64,000 nt of DNA from Brachybacterium kimchii (GTDB lineage Bacteria > Actinomycetota > Actinomycetes > Actinomycetales > Dermabacteraceae), in contig NZ_CP097218.1 of NCBI RefSeq assembly GCF_023373525.1, positions 1-64,000 of the forward strand, written 5' to 3'. The notes beneath the pieces are model-generated. The model had not been told where the DNA came from and searched no databases. It saw only the letters and a program-made list of their open reading frames with translations. This document shows positions 58,154 through 64,000 of this stretch, piece by piece. The translations under genes were made by a program, and so were the position numbers. The first letter of the stretch is position 1. The number at the start of each line of letters is the position of its first letter.

Positions 58154-58192
58154 CACAGGACCCCGGCACCGCATCGGTGCCGGGGTCCTGTG
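58154..58192. terminator. rplM-rpsI terminator
   Basis: Perfect 17-bp arms (58154-58170 and 58176-58192) with a 5-nt loop, 20 nt after rpsI. It is 70 nt downstream of the minus-strand NRPS operon end and may serve both. Confidence 0.85.
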
Positions 58193-58261: not shown

Positions 58262-58987
58262 TCATCGTGCCGCGGGCAGGAGCGGGCCGAGGTCGTGCGC
58301 GCGCATCGGCCGACGGCTGTCGGCGCTCGTCGCGAGCGCACAGGGGACCTCCCCGGGCAGGTCCTCGACGACGAGACCGAGGGTCGGGCGGGGAGAGCAC
58401 TCGTGCACTGCCCACTGCCGCACGCCGCGCGTTAGGCGGGGCACGAGGCGGAGCCGGTGCGGATCGATGCGGAGGCCGACGCCCGCGGCCTTCAGGACGG
58501 CCTCCTTGCGGGTCCACAGATCCACGCGGGCCCGCGTACCAGCGGGTTCCGTGAGGTGCTCGTCCGGGTGCAGGACCGCGGCGTCGAAGCCGTCCCACAG
58601 CGTCCGCGGCAGCTCCTGGATGTCCACGCCGAGCGGAGGCGGTTCCTCCGCGCCGTCCTCGCACGCCGCCACGGCGACGAGGACATGCGGGCCGGAGGCG
58701 GATCCGGAGAGAGCGGCACCGGCTGTCCTGGGCCGGCCATGGGGTTCGCCGCACACGTCGCATGTGCGCTCGATCGGCAGCAGCGGCGCCTCCGCAGCTG
58801 GAGCGCCCAGCACGTGCGCGAGCAGAAGACGCAGCGCGACGCGACCGGCCAGGGTGCGCTCGGCATGGGCCCCTTGCCGTGCGCCCGCTGCGACGAGGTC
58901 CTCGGGCGCGGCGAGCGACGGCAGGCCGCCGAGGGGGAGCGCAGCCTCCGCGACGGCGCCGACCGTGGTCCCCAGCGTGGCGATCAC
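58262..58987 (-). CDS. Sfp-type 4'-phosphopantetheinyl transferase
   Basis: Loads the phosphopantetheine arm onto carrier domains; 241 aa. The magnesium-binding GVDIQEL and the WTRKEAVLKAAG motif are present. The start is a GTG in the stop of the permease gene (GTGA); the frame is open upstream but only by overlap. As the last gene of the NRPS operon it presumably activates the carrier domain encoded at its other end. Confidence 0.85.
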   Translation of the reverse strand: MIATLGTTVGAVAEAALPLGGLPSLAAPEDLVAAGARQGAHAERTLAGRVALRLLLAHVLGAPAAEAPLLPIERTCDVCGEPHGRPRTAGAALSGSASGPHVLVAVAACEDGAEEPPPLGVDIQELPRTLWDGFDAAVLHPDEHLTEPAGTRARVDLWTRKEAVLKAAGVGLRIDPHRLRLVPRLTRGVRQWAVHECSPRPTLGLVVEDLPGEVPCALATSADSRRPMRAHDLGPLLPAAR

Positions 58988-59781
58988 CGACGGCCGATGC
59001 TCCGATAGCGCACGACCGCCAGGGGCGCGAACACCGCGATGAGGGCGACGCAGCACAGCGTCGCGTAGAGGGCGGGATGTTCCGCCGGCCAGCCGCCGGG
59101 CGCCACGAAGCCCGCAGGGGCCGAGTTCCCGAAGCCCTCTCGTGCGGCGGTCGCGACCGCCGTGACGGGGTTCCAGCGGGCAACGGCCTGCAGCGCGGAG
59201 GGGAGCATGTCGGCCGAGACGAACGCGCCCGAGACGAAGCACACGGGGAACAGCCACAGCAGGCCCACGCTCTGGGCGACCTCCACCGAGCGCGCCGTCA
59301 GGGCGATCAGCGCACCCACCCAGGAGACCGCGAAGGCGAACAGCATCAGCAGGGCGCAGGTGAGCAGGATCGAGCCGATCCCACTGGTGGGTCGCCAGCC
59401 GATGGCGAGCCCGCAGACGAGGATGACGAGGACCGAGATGGCACTCGTGGCGAGGTCCGAGACGGTCCTGCCCAGGATGACCCCGACGCGCGACATGGGC
59501 AGGGCGCGGAATCGGTCGATCAGGCCGGACTGCAGATCCTTCGCGAGGTACACCGCGGTGAACGACGAGTTGAAGGTGAGGGTCTGCGCGAGGATCCCGC
59601 CGATCAGGAACTCGCGGTACTGATCGCCGCCGAGCGCGCCACCGAACACGAAGGCGAGGATGAGCACGAAGAGGATCGGCTGCGCGATCCCGGTGACGAG
59701 GGCGCCCGGCGTGCGCCGCAGACCGATGAGGTTGCGCCGGGCGATGACCCCGCCGTCGCCGAGGGCTCTCAGGGCCCTCAT
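58984..59781 (-). CDS. ABC-2 type exporter permease (DrrB-like)
   Basis: Membrane half of a drug/peptide exporter, 265 aa, six membrane segments. Conserved ABC-2 segments are GLRRTPGALVTGIAQPILFV, DRFRALPMSRVGVILGRT and LLWLFPVCFVSGAFVSADML, then WNPVTAVATAAREGF. The ATG overlaps the ATPase stop (ATGA). It probably exports the peptide made by the upstream NRPS, or confers self-resistance. Confidence 0.88.
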   Translation of the reverse strand: MRALRALGDGGVIARRNLIGLRRTPGALVTGIAQPILFVLILAFVFGGALGGDQYREFLIGGILAQTLTFNSSFTAVYLAKDLQSGLIDRFRALPMSRVGVILGRTVSDLATSAISVLVILVCGLAIGWRPTSGIGSILLTCALLMLFAFAVSWVGALIALTARSVEVAQSVGLLWLFPVCFVSGAFVSADMLPSALQAVARWNPVTAVATAAREGFGNSAPAGFVAPGGWPAEHPALYATLCCVALIAVFAPLAVVRYRSIGRR

Positions 59782-60761
59782 CGTGCGGGCTCCGATTCCG
59801 GCGACCGCCGCGAGCCGCTCGGACGGCCGCCCGACTCCTGGTCCCCGGTCAGGGCGAGGAAGACCTCGTCGAGCGTGGGCTGTCGCAGGGACGCCTCCTC
59901 GACGTCGATGCCTGCTTCCTCGAGAGCGCGGAGCACGCGGCCGAGGCCGCCGACGCCCTCCTCCGTGCTCAGGGTGAGCCGATGCCCGCGGTCGTCCGCG
60001 TCGGCCTCGAGACCGTGCCGGGAGAGCGCCGTGCGGGCGGTGCGCACCTGGTCGACCCTCGTGCACGAGACGTCGATGCGCGAGCCCCCGGCGCGGGACT
60101 TGAGCTCCCTGGCCGACCCCTCCGCGACGATGCGGCCCCGGTCGATCACCGAGATCGAGTCGGCGAGCCGGTCCGCCTCCTCGAGGTACTGGGTGGTCAG
60201 CAGGACCGTCACCCCGTCCGCCGTGAGGGAGTCCACCGCATCCCACGTGTCGCGCCGCCCTCGCGGGTCCAGGCCCGTCGTGGGCTCGTCGAGGATGACC
60301 ACCGGCGGGCGCGCGATCACCGCACCGGCGAGGTCGAGGCGTCGGCGCATGCCACCGGAGTACTGGCCGGCCAGCAGCGTGTCGGCGACGTCCTCGAGGC
60401 GGAAGTCGGCCAGCAGTCCCCGGGCCCGCTCGACGGCCGTGCGCCGGGGCATGCCGTAGAGCCGTGCCACCATCCGCAGGTTCTCGAAGCCGGTGAGGCG
60501 CTCGTCGACCGCGGCGTACTGGCCGGAGACGCCGAGACTGCGCCGCACGTCGTCGGGATGCGAACGCACGGAGCGGCCGGCGACGAGGGCGTCGCCGGCG
60601 TCCGGGGAGAGGAGCGTCGTCAGGACCCGCACGATCGTGGTCTTGCCCGCGCCGTTGGGCCCCAGCAGGCCGTGCACCGTGCCGGCGGGGACCTCGAGGT
60701 CGACGCCGTCCAGTGCCGTCCGCCCGCCGAACCGTTTGACGAGGCCGTGCAGGGCGATCAC
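59778..60761 (-). CDS. ABC exporter ATP-binding protein (DrrA-like)
   Basis: 327 aa. Walker A GPNGAGKTT, signature YSGGMRRRLDLA, Walker B VVILDEPTTGLDPRG and the switch His replaced by Gln in LLTTQYLEEADRL, as is usual in DrrA proteins. The C-terminal regulatory domain ends QPTLDEVFLALTG. The GTG start lies in the mbtH stop (GTGA). Confidence 0.9.
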   Translation of the reverse strand: MIALHGLVKRFGGRTALDGVDLEVPAGTVHGLLGPNGAGKTTIVRVLTTLLSPDAGDALVAGRSVRSHPDDVRRSLGVSGQYAAVDERLTGFENLRMVARLYGMPRRTAVERARGLLADFRLEDVADTLLAGQYSGGMRRRLDLAGAVIARPPVVILDEPTTGLDPRGRRDTWDAVDSLTADGVTVLLTTQYLEEADRLADSISVIDRGRIVAEGSARELKSRAGGSRIDVSCTRVDQVRTARTALSRHGLEADADDRGHRLTLSTEEGVGGLGRVLRALEEAGIDVEEASLRQPTLDEVFLALTGDQESGGRPSGSRRSPESEPAR

Positions 60762-60973
60762 GAGGCCTCTCGCGCTCCGTCGTCGGACCGGGCGGGAGTG
60801 ATGTCGGACCAGGAGGCCGAGACGTGGCCGAGGCAGTCGGCGCGCGAGCCGGGCCCGAAGACCGCGACCCAGCCGCGGGGGAGGTCCGCGGACTCGGGCC
60901 ACAGCGAGTGCTGGCCGCGCTCGTTCACGAGAACTCGGAAGGTGCCGTCGGGGTCGTCGAAGGGGTTGGTCAT
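60758..60973 (-). CDS. MbtH-like protein
   Basis: Small activator of NRPS adenylation domains, 71 aa. VNERGQHSLWPESADLPRGW and the Cys-Leu followed by WSDITP correspond to the MbtH signature (WSDITP in place of the common WTDMRP). The ATG lies in the NRPS stop (ATGA), so it is made in step with the synthetase it should bind. Confidence 0.92.
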   Translation of the reverse strand: MTNPFDDPDGTFRVLVNERGQHSLWPESADLPRGWVAVFGPGSRADCLGHVSASWSDITPARSDDGAREAS

Positions 60974-63900
60974 CGTGCGCTTCCTCTGCCGTCGTCAGGT
61001 CGGGTTCGAGAGTGGTTCGGAGCGCTCGGCGATCCGGTTCGGTGCGATTCCGCGCCGGGGATGATCGAGTCGAGCCACGCCGCGACCTCGCGCGCCGCCG
61101 GATCGGACAGGAGATCGGAATGCCGTGAGGCGACCCGCTCGACGGTCACGGCCCCACGGACGTACGGAGCCCACGCCTCCGGTGCGGGTCGGCCCTGCGG
61201 CACCTGGGCGGTGGCCTCGATCAGCTCCAGGTCGCCGTCGACGACCGGCAGGGCGGCGTCGTCCAGGAGCGCCGCCACCTGCGGGAAGCGGGCCGCCATG
61301 CGCCGGGCCGCCGCGGCGGGGACGTTCCCCAGGGCATTGCCGGCCGCCCTGAGGGTCGCGAGGACGGTGGAGACGTCCAGTCGGCCCTCCGGTATCGGCG
61401 TCCCCTGGGCGTCGAGGAAGGCGCGCCAGCGCTCCTGCTCGTCGCGGACGCCGTGCAGCGCGTCCTGACCCGGGTAGGCGTCGAGGACCGCGAGGAGGGC
61501 GACCTCCTCGCCGGCGCTCTGCAGGCGGGCGGCGATCCGATGGGCGATGCGCCCTCCGAGCGAATACCCCAGCAGGTGGTACGGGCCGTGGCTCTGGACG
61601 GATCGGATGGCGCGCAGATAGTGGTCCAGCAGGTCGTCGAGGGTCTCGTCGGCGTCCGTCGCGTCGTCCCCGTCGGCCGACGGGGCGAGGCCCGGGAGCT
61701 GCAGTCCGATCACCGGCCGGGTCGTGCTCAGATGGGGCAGGAGACCGGAGAAGGCCCACGCGAGACCGCTGGCCGGATGGACGGCGAACAGCGGATCGCC
61801 CCGGCCGTCGGGCCGCAGCGGCAGCACGACGCCGAGCGCGTCGACCTCGGCCGCGTGCCCTGTGGCGGGCTCGGCGGCGTCGAGCGCCGCGGCGAGTCCC
61901 GCCACGGTCGGGGTGCGCAGGAGGGCGTGGATCGGGACCTCGCGCCCCAGCGCCCTGCCGATCGCCGCCGTCGCAGGACGGGCGACGAAGGAGTGCCCTC
62001 CCAGTGCGAAGAAGGAGTCGTCGGCCCGGACGTCCTCGACCTCCAGCACGTCGGCGAACGCCTCGGCGATCACGGTCTCGGTGCCCGGCCGCGGGGCGCG
62101 CCCCGCACCGACGGCGGACGTCGGCCCGGGAAGGGCGCGCGCGTCCACCTTCCCGTTCGACGTCAGCGGGATGTCCTGGATCGCAGTGATCGACGAGGGG
62201 AGCATGTACTCGGGCAGCCGCGCGGCGAGCGCCTGCTCGAGCCGGCCGCGCAGTCCGTCGGCCTCCACGCCGGGCGCCGGCACCACCCAGGCGGCGAGCG
62301 CGGTGCCGCGGGCGCCGTCGACCGTGCGCACGATCGCCTGCGCGACGGTGTGCTGCGCCGTGATGACGGCGGCGATCTCGCCGGGCTCGATCCGATGCCC
62401 GCGGATCTTCACCTGGTCGTCGATGCGCCCGAGGGCGATGACGGGCGCTCTGCGCCCCGGTTCCGCGTCCCGCACGGAGACGAGATCGCCGGTGCGGTAC
62501 ATGCGGCTGCCGTCCCCCGCGAACGGGTCCGCGACGAAGCGCCCGGCGGTCGCGGCCGGATCGCCCAGGTATCCGTCGGCGAGCTGAGGGCCGCTGAGCC
62601 AGAGCTCGCCGATGCTGCCGACGGGCACCGGACGCAGATCCGCGTCCAGGACCCGGGCGACGGTCCCGCAGGTGGGCGCTCCGAGGACGGGCCGCATGCT
62701 GTCGGCGAGGGGCGCGACCAGGGTGTCGACCCCTGCCTCGGTGGGCCCGTAGAGGTTCCACCCCTGGACCGCGCGGCGCTCGCGCACCCAGTCCCACAGG
62801 CCGGGGTCGACGGGCTCCCCGCCCAGCAGCAGGAGGAAGGGATCCTCCGGGTCCCCGCCATCGAGCAGGTCGGTGAGCCCGGTCTGCCCGCGCAGGGCGT
62901 CGACATGGCCCGGGGTGGCCTCCCAGGCGTCGATCCGCTCCCGCGCGAACAGGGCGACAAGGGCCTCGGGGTCCCTGCGCACGAGCTCGTCGACCACATG
63001 GACCTCGTGCCCCGCGACGCACCACAGGACGGGATCGAGCGAGGCGTCGAAGCCGACTCCCGTGGTGTGGGCGAGCCGCAGACGGCGGCGCGCGGGATCG
63101 GGCAGGAGGGTCGAGCGGTGGCTGGTCAGGAGTCGCGTGAGGGCGCGGTGGGGAACCCGGACGCCCTTCGGCGTCCCGGTGGTGCCCGAGGTGAAGATGA
63201 TGTAGGCGCCGTCCTCGGGACCCGGCAGGTGCTGCGGAGGCTCCCCGGCGGGGAGGCCGTCGATCGTCAGGATGCGGTCGGCGTCGAGCCCCGACGCACG
63301 CGCGCTCGCCGCGGCGTCCTGCTCGTCCGCATGTCCGGTGTGCAGCAGAAGGCGTGGCGCCGATGCGCGCATCATGGCCATCACCCGCTCGGCGGGCAGG
63401 CCGATGTCGAGCGGGACCGCGACCCCGCCCGCCCTCCAGATGCCGAGCATCCCGGCGACGGAGTCGCTGCCGCGGCGCACGGCCAGAGCGACGCGGTCCC
63501 CGGTCCCGACTCCGGCGGCTCGGAGGCCTCCGGCGATCCCGTCGACGCGAGCGGCGAGCTCGGCGGTCGTCAGGGCTCGATCCGGGCCGACGAGCGCCGA
63601 CGCGTCCGGGCGCGAGGCGGCGGAGTCCGCGAGAGCCGCGAGCACGCTCTGCGCGGGTGCCGTCGCGGGCCACGGAGTCAGAGGCGTCGACGGCGGCCCC
63701 GCGGGGACCCTGCCGACGCACGCCCCGGGGTCCCCGGCGATGCCGCCGAGGAAGGCGAGCCAGCGGTCGATGAGACCGCGAGCGGCCAGGTCGCTGAACA
63801 GCTCGGCGTCGTACTCGAGGATCCCTTCCATGCCGCCCTCGGCGTCCGGTCGGAGCGTGAACGAGAGGTCGACCTTGGCCGCGCCCGTCGTCTCGGGGGC

Positions 63901-64000
63901 GCCGCGGGTGACGGCGACGCCCGGCAGGTCCAGGACGGCCCCGTCCGTCTCCTCGAGGGAGAGCATGGTCTGGAACAGCGGATGGCGCCCGAAGCGGCGT
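60970..64000 (-). CDS. non-ribosomal peptide synthetase, terminal module C-A-T-TE (5' end beyond window)
   Basis: The frame is open to the window end, and conserved condensation-domain residues (RRFGRHPLFQT) precede the first Met at 63966, so the gene continues beyond 64000. Numbering from that Met: end of a C domain to about 95; A domain about 100-615 with IIFTSGTTGTPKG (256-268), NLYGPTEAG (404-412), YRTGDLV (490-496) and SNGKVDARALP (603-613); carrier domain with Ser659 in LGGHSF; thioesterase about 720-998 with Ser802 in GYSLGG, Asp829 and a C-terminal His. It adds the last amino acid and releases the peptide. Confidence 0.93.
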   Translation of the reverse strand, partial: RRFGRHPLFQTMLSLEETDGAVLDLPGVAVTRGAPETTGAAKVDLSFTLRPDAEGGMEGILEYDAELFSDLAARGLIDRWLAFLGGIAGDPGACVGRVPAGPPSTPLTPWPATAPAQSVLAALADSAASRPDASALVGPDRALTTAELAARVDGIAGGLRAAGVGTGDRVALAVRRGSDSVAGMLGIWRAGGVAVPLDIGLPAERVMAMMRASAPRLLLHTGHADEQDAAASARASGLDADRILTIDGLPAGEPPQHLPGPEDGAYIIFTSGTTGTPKGVRVPHRALTRLLTSHRSTLLPDPARRRLRLAHTTGVGFDASLDPVLWCVAGHEVHVVDELVRRDPEALVALFARERIDAWEATPGHVDALRGQTGLTDLLDGGDPEDPFLLLLGGEPVDPGLWDWVRERRAVQGWNLYGPTEAGVDTLVAPLADSMRPVLGAPTCGTVARVLDADLRPVPVGSIGELWLSGPQLADGYLGDPAATAGRFVADPFAGDGSRMYRTGDLVSVRDAEPGRRAPVIALGRIDDQVKIRGHRIEPGEIAAVITAQHTVAQAIVRTVDGARGTALAAWVVPAPGVEADGLRGRLEQALAARLPEYMLPSSITAIQDIPLTSNGKVDARALPGPTSAVGAGRAPRPGTETVIAEAFADVLEVEDVRADDSFFALGGHSFVARPATAAIGRALGREVPIHALLRTPTVAGLAAALDAAEPATGHAAEVDALGVVLPLRPDGRGDPLFAVHPASGLAWAFSGLLPHLSTTRPVIGLQLPGLAPSADGDDATDADETLDDLLDHYLRAIRSVQSHGPYHLLGYSLGGRIAHRIAARLQSAGEEVALLAVLDAYPGQDALHGVRDEQERWRAFLDAQGTPIPEGRLDVSTVLATLRAAGNALGNVPAAAARRMAARFPQVAALLDDAALPVVDGDLELIEATAQVPQGRPAPEAWAPYVRGAVTVERVASRHSDLLSDPAAREVAAWLDSIIPGAESHRTGSPSAPNHSRTRPDDGRGSAR

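Follow-up and report, generated by a model that had tools for sequence, protein, structure and literature searches.

A nonribosomal peptide synthetase operon in Brachybacterium and its relatives carries a linked small peptide gene and a SigK-type promoter element

By extending the sequence past the window (the whole stretch of 64,000 nucleotides that was analysed, positions 1-64000 of contig G000:C1 in a 4.3-Mb Brachybacterium genome that continues beyond it), our work here places five genes at the window's end within a larger unit that begins with a small secreted peptide and is preceded by a SigK-type promoter element. The five-gene tail with its overlapping junctions is ordinary; what is new is the full unit, with an undescribed and invariably linked peptide and a SigK-type promoter.

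Results

The sequence-only reading of this DNA had named five minus-strand genes, for a nonribosomal peptide synthetase (NRPS), an MbtH-like protein, an ABC ATPase, a permease and an Sfp-type phosphopantetheinyl transferase (PPTase), and had placed the upstream part of the operon outside the window. ORFs and domain searches confirm the five genes and their coordinates, and extension past position 64000 indeed puts the NRPS start at G000:C1 71517, with the first gene beyond it. The five names therefore stand, whereas the peptide gene at the operon's 5' end and the SigK-type promoter had gone unnoticed. The features, in window or contig positions, are:

58154..58192, minus strand: perfect 18-bp hairpin separating the operon from convergent rpsI (fold z-score -4.2)
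58262..58987, minus strand: 4'-phosphopantetheinyl transferase, Sfp-like superfamily (PF01648, 34.7 bits); start within the permease stop (GTGA)
58984..59781, minus strand: ABC-2 type permease, DrrB-like (PF01061, 1e-31); start within the ATPase stop (ATGA)
59778..60761, minus strand: ABC exporter ATPase, DrrA type (TIGR01188, 324 bits); start within the mbtH stop (GTGA)
60758..60973, minus strand: MbtH-like protein, 71 aa (PF03621, 9e-26); start within the NRPS stop (ATGA)
60970..64000, minus strand: C-terminal part of the NRPS (A-T-TE and the end of a C domain), from Pfam domains and ORF extension
G000:C1 60970-71517, minus strand: full NRPS ORF, 3515 aa, (C-A-T)x3-TE, GTG start, from ORF extension and Pfam
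G000:C1 71573-71785, minus strand: first gene, 70-aa secreted peptide; ORF 55 bp upstream of the NRPS start
G000:C1 71855-71881, upstream of the first gene: SigK-type promoter element, by sequence match
G000:C1 3,514,001-3,533,000: predicted SigK locus (L147), ycnI (DUF1775)-copCD-sigK-rskA and CHRD-sortase, with a CMATCC..CGAA element ahead of each

Under the joint explanation that we consider probable, which includes SigK control, the operon comprises six genes: secreted peptide, trimodular NRPS, mbtH, DrrA-type ATPase, permease and PPTase. The earlier proposal of a single transcription unit that makes, activates and exports a peptide is supported. No sigma-70-like promoter was found inside the five-gene tail, and no characterised cluster with the same genes turned up in the open literature searched. 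The hairpin 3' of the PPTase gene is a probable bidirectional terminator without a U-run.

The complete coupling of the tail, which had been offered as its notable feature, did not hold up as such. All four junctions do overlap by 4 nt, with the words ATGA, GTGA, ATGA and GTGA as claimed, and three other copies in the genus share this arrangement (L033, L035 and L036, not the fourth, L037), while junctions in copies from other families are looser. Elsewhere in the window the exact 4-nt overlap occurs at 8 of 53 same-strand neighbours and at 8 of the 23 spaced by 20 nt or less, and the probability of four out of four given such tight spacing is about 0.015. Because these overlaps are common in the genome and are not strictly kept among relatives, where spacing differs and some junctions are retained and others lost, we judge the coupling ordinary. 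The PPTase stop (58262-58265) also reads ATGA and opens a 40-aa ORF running into the terminator hairpin, which is probably due to chance and shows how common such words are here.

The full NRPS combines condensation, adenylation and carrier modules with a terminal thioesterase in one chain and is thus a multimodular NRPS: Pfam finds three AMP-binding, three PP-binding and one Thioesterase domain, along with Condensation matches in four stretches that we read as three domains. No other protein of the genome has condensation domains. The operon is present in six Brachybacterium genomes, the closest named relatives among the loci found being Brachybacterium subflavum and B. endophyticum, and it occupies at least three chromosomal locations within the genus. 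Here it sits between rpsI and the helicase/glmM region (58133-71972, past the window end); G001 likewise has it near rpsI, and in G005, G009 and G020 it lies elsewhere on the chromosome (loci L035, L036, L037 and L038). These differing places suggest repeated transfer or transposition of the operon.

The first gene encodes a 70-aa peptide with a signal peptide (MFHRFRR...SSSLVQGPLIDGPLIDIDGLLETLQLGQFQQ) and the C-terminus LGQFQQ; other copies end in IGQFQ or LGQFQ. A peptide ORF precedes the operon in all six Brachybacterium operon genomes, at whatever chromosomal site, and an order-wide profile of the peptide matches other families, where the same NRPS-MbtH-ATPase-permease set adjoins the peptide at the loci read. 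Conversely, when 396 genomes of the order are searched with a permease HMM (limit 1e-95), 20 contain an orthologue, none scoring below 457 bits. Beside the NRPS, all 20 encode a small peptide whose sequence ends in GQFQ or GQFQQ (19 by HMM; G196 by reading the locus, its peptide, missed by the profile, ending GPFQIGQFQ; the linkage in G337 inferred from two contig ends). Weak profile matches in operon-less genomes (E 3e-5 to 8e-4) align to about the first 55 residues, the signal peptide, and were counted as chance.

Conservation lies in the C-terminal part, (L/I)xxGPL(I/V)xGPL...(I/L)GQFQ. Between diverged genus pairs the last 31 codons have dN of about 0.15 and dS of about 0.7, against dN of about 0.45 in the N-terminal part; the C-terminal part is under purifying selection, stronger than that on the N-terminal part. 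In families f9 and f13 the peptide is 33 aa long and signal-less, behind a good ribosome-binding site (L067, L068, L073, L075), so that it is not always exported by Sec. Searches of Pfam-A gave no match and searches of NCBIfam only 14-bit chance matches; the family is undescribed in both.

Outside the order, searching the whole class for the permease brings up the operon in Streptomyces and in family f35 as well, the genus name resting on a plasmid copy in S. anulatus and, for the other copies, on kinship and the same arrangement. A class-wide search with the GQFQ profile returns our own genome only; the operon copies of the class sample carry other peptide types. A divergently transcribed small secreted peptide with two repeats of the type QGxN(F/L)CLL(S/A)xC accompanies all nine Streptomyces chromosomal copies read and also the one on the S. 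anulatus plasmid, and in both copies from f35 the peptide is co-directional and contains IGNYQ. These types are alike in position, size and secretion signal; the f58 copy shows no recognisable small peptide. In S. anulatus the operon is carried by a linear, mobilizable plasmid (NZ_CP109126.1, L102), where it adjoins genes for fasciclin, sortase, DUF4331 and a molybdopterin oxidoreductase. Four tetramodular f22 synthetases of about 4500 aa (L098-L101) have a related exporter and different adenylation pockets, and were excluded from the family.

The main rival reading takes the small ORF to encode a cis-acting leader peptide that controls NRPS translation by nascent-chain arrest or attenuation and has no extracellular function of its own. 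The ORF's place is consistent with this, first in the operon and, in most copies, 46-121 nt ahead of the NRPS, as are the concentration of conservation in the final ~31 residues, a stretch roughly as long as the ribosomal tunnel, and the short signal-less versions in f9 and f13. Folding of the peptide-NRPS junction, however, reveals no RNA structure beyond chance (z -0.29) and a consensus fold without gain from covariation (+1.56), and an RNA attenuator at this place was accordingly rejected. Moreover, the Streptomyces secreted peptide, which resembles the GQFQ peptide in position, size and secretion signal, could not act in cis because it is encoded on the opposite strand, sometimes behind a SigK-type element of its own, and in f35 peptide and NRPS are at least 300 nt apart. 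We therefore see a leader as a possibility that carries some weight and is nonetheless rather unlikely.

Upstream of the peptide gene, within 150 bases, a repeated element CC(A/C)ATCC-N-YCGAA is seen. In the form CMATCC-N15-17-YCGAA it precedes 22 of 36 operon copies on the same strand and a further 5 on the opposite strand, whereas each of seven other spacings used as a control occurs in 0 of 36. Roughly one copy in four lacks the strict pattern, and near matches occur in some of these. Some Streptomyces copies carry the element in both directions, one facing the NRPS and one the peptide, and the fasciclin gene adjoining the S. anulatus copy has its own. The element resembles the SigK (mpt70/mpt83) promoter, whose consensus we take to be CCATCC-N-CCGAAT; we did not find this consensus in print in the open literature.

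A related pattern has six matches in our own genome. One is at the operon, three belong to copies of a single identical sequence, and the remaining two, the only clean sites besides that of the operon, are about 5 kb apart and flank a sigK-rskA locus that has ycnI-copCD-sigK-rskA at one side and CHRD-sortase at the other. The best solved relative of the sigma factor is M. tuberculosis SigK (4NQW, 167 bits; the next scores 71), and the anti-sigma factor is of the RskA type (PF10099 RskA_C, 75 bits versus 29). The genome thus encodes a SigK orthologue together with RskA and holds the CCATCC-N-CCGAA element that we presume to be its target. Among the excluded tetramodular relatives, L101 has a sigma factor and an RskA-type anti-sigma factor directly downstream of the operon. 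SigK orthologues recognise conserved sites across Actinobacteria (PMC7509140). From the element counts, the sites flanking sigK-rskA and the copper genes, this conservation of SigK sites and the sigma-RskA pair in f22, the predicted control of the operon by SigK is well supported at the level of sequence.

What the NRPS makes can be predicted from its adenylation pockets. The three pockets of our NRPS read D-A-D-E-(A/L)-G-L-V-D, and family modules across orders have a near-identical code (overall DADE-xG-x-VD, or DADE(A/L)G(L/F)VD); in nearly all readable modules of 18 operon copies D235, E278 and V/I-D at 330-331 are common. The pocket register, at positions 299 and 301, was set by hand against EntF and GrsA motifs as we take them to be. 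Acidic residues at 278 and 331 are typical for basic substrates. In a published code for ornithine, DVGEIGSIDK (PMC3992020), E and I-D fall at the same positions, and the open literature yielded no exact published match for DADE(A/L)G(L/F)VD. Together these features suggest that the NRPS would use three basic amino acids, ornithine, lysine, arginine or similar. The N-terminal, starter-position condensation domain likewise suggests an N-capped product; no enzyme supplying a starter acyl group is found in the operon.

These predictions bear on a second alternative, in which the operon makes a metal chelator (a siderophore or chalkophore) and SigK control together with the CopCD/YcnI genes points to copper. 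The EntF-like starter condensation domain fits such a product, as does the EntF-like best equivalog match of the part of the NRPS inside the window, and this is the genome's only NRPS with condensation domains; in addition, ycnI-copCD-sigK-rskA stands behind the same element, with a metal P-type ATPase next to it. Like the catecholate synthetases EntF and DhbF with their MbtH proteins, the operon NRPS has C-A-T organisation, a starter C domain, a terminal thioesterase and an MbtH partner. In contrast to them, it has three near-identical pockets that are not of the serine/threonine type, and across six genomes with the operon the top score for a DHB-AMP ligase (TIGR02275) is 195 bits, short of the family cut-off of 724 (163 in our own genome), which makes a DHB product unlikely; a catecholate was rejected on these scores. 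Nor does the operon contain a monooxygenase, including the ornithine/lysine N-monooxygenase of a hydroxamate siderophore system, or an isonitrile or uptake gene, and the pockets predict unmodified basic residues. A chelator is, in our view, unlikely.

The exporter genes are related to DrrAB-type ABC-2 exporters to different degrees. The ATPase exceeds the DrrA subfamily cut-off (TIGR01188, 324 bits against 312), whereas the permease falls far below that of DrrB (TIGR01247, 74 bits against 223) and forms a highly conserved group of its own tied to the operon, 70-83% identical among copies from several families. From their linkage we infer that the pair probably exports the NRPS product. Exporters of this type also serve self-resistance in antibiotic clusters, yet an ordinary antibiotic-type NRPS cluster with promoter element and small ORF as incidental neighbours is very improbable, because the linkage of peptide, promoter and NRPS is kept across several families and at unrelated chromosomal sites.

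At 241 aa and with an ACPS domain (PF01648, 34.7 bits against a cut-off of 25), the last protein has the domain and the chain length (~200-250 aa) of a predicted Sfp-type PPTase. A weakly conserved homologue lies 3' of the permease in every copy from the order Micrococcales whose 3' side was read, and we therefore count the PPTase as part of the unit. The further suggestion that the locus is self-contained, with a transferase of its own, finds no support, since the genome encodes a second Sfp-like PPTase (G000:C1 about 2,000,700) and an AcpS-type enzyme adjoining glmS, and since Streptomyces operon copies have no PPTase. The short second PPTase (L032:16682-17206) is close to a 1298-aa Pls/PosA-family nonribosomal synthetase (L032:11320-15216; G000:C1 about 1.995-2.001 Mb), a possible amino-acid homopolymer maker. 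The operon NRPS resembles such homopolymer synthetases in its predicted repeated use of one amino acid type, but differs from the Pls architecture in being multimodular, with condensation and thioesterase domains.

Discussion

On balance we favour a SigK-controlled unit of peptide, NRPS, MbtH, ABC exporter and PPTase as the best, and a reasonably probable, reading of the locus. We posit that triggering of the SigK-RskA system would lead to transcription of the six genes from the SigK (ECF18/19)-type promoter, whereupon the PPTase would arm the three carrier domains of the NRPS and MbtH would assist its adenylation domains. The NRPS with its terminal thioesterase would then release a short, probably N-capped, tribasic peptide, to be secreted by the ABC exporter. 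In parallel, the first-gene peptide would be exported, via Sec where it has a signal peptide, and would act extracellularly or at the envelope together with the nonribosomal product, both peptides being part of a SigK envelope or copper response. The ribosomal peptide is usually acidic, and the parallel secretion that we envisage of this peptide and a tribasic nonribosomal one under a SigK-type promoter suggests a role in such a response; our confidence in the copper part is low. More speculatively, and we give the idea little weight, the two could function as a single unit, perhaps covalently joined or assembled into an extracellular complex, giving a SigK-triggered two-part secretion in which the ribosomal partner is lineage-specific (GQFQ, IGNYQ or CLLSxC) and the tribasic partner the same.

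The predicted regulon shares several features with the M. tuberculosis SigK-RskA regulon (mpt70/mpt83; ECF18/ECF19), namely a SigK orthologue, RskA and a bipartite element, as we take its consensus to be, as well as the fasciclin gene with its own element next to the S. anulatus operon copy. It differs in including an NRPS operon and a copper operon. The SigK found here is also without the two cysteines of the M. tuberculosis protein that are discussed in PMC7509140.

SigK governs major antigens in both M. tuberculosis and M. bovis, and the signal that activates it is described as not yet known (PMC7509140). A conserved biosynthetic operon with a SigK-type promoter in non-pathogenic relatives would offer a tractable route to that signal. 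Beyond this, an undescribed peptide family tied without exception to one type of NRPS across the order suggests a two-part secreted product, of a kind that genome-mining tools may overlook because the peptide gene is so short.
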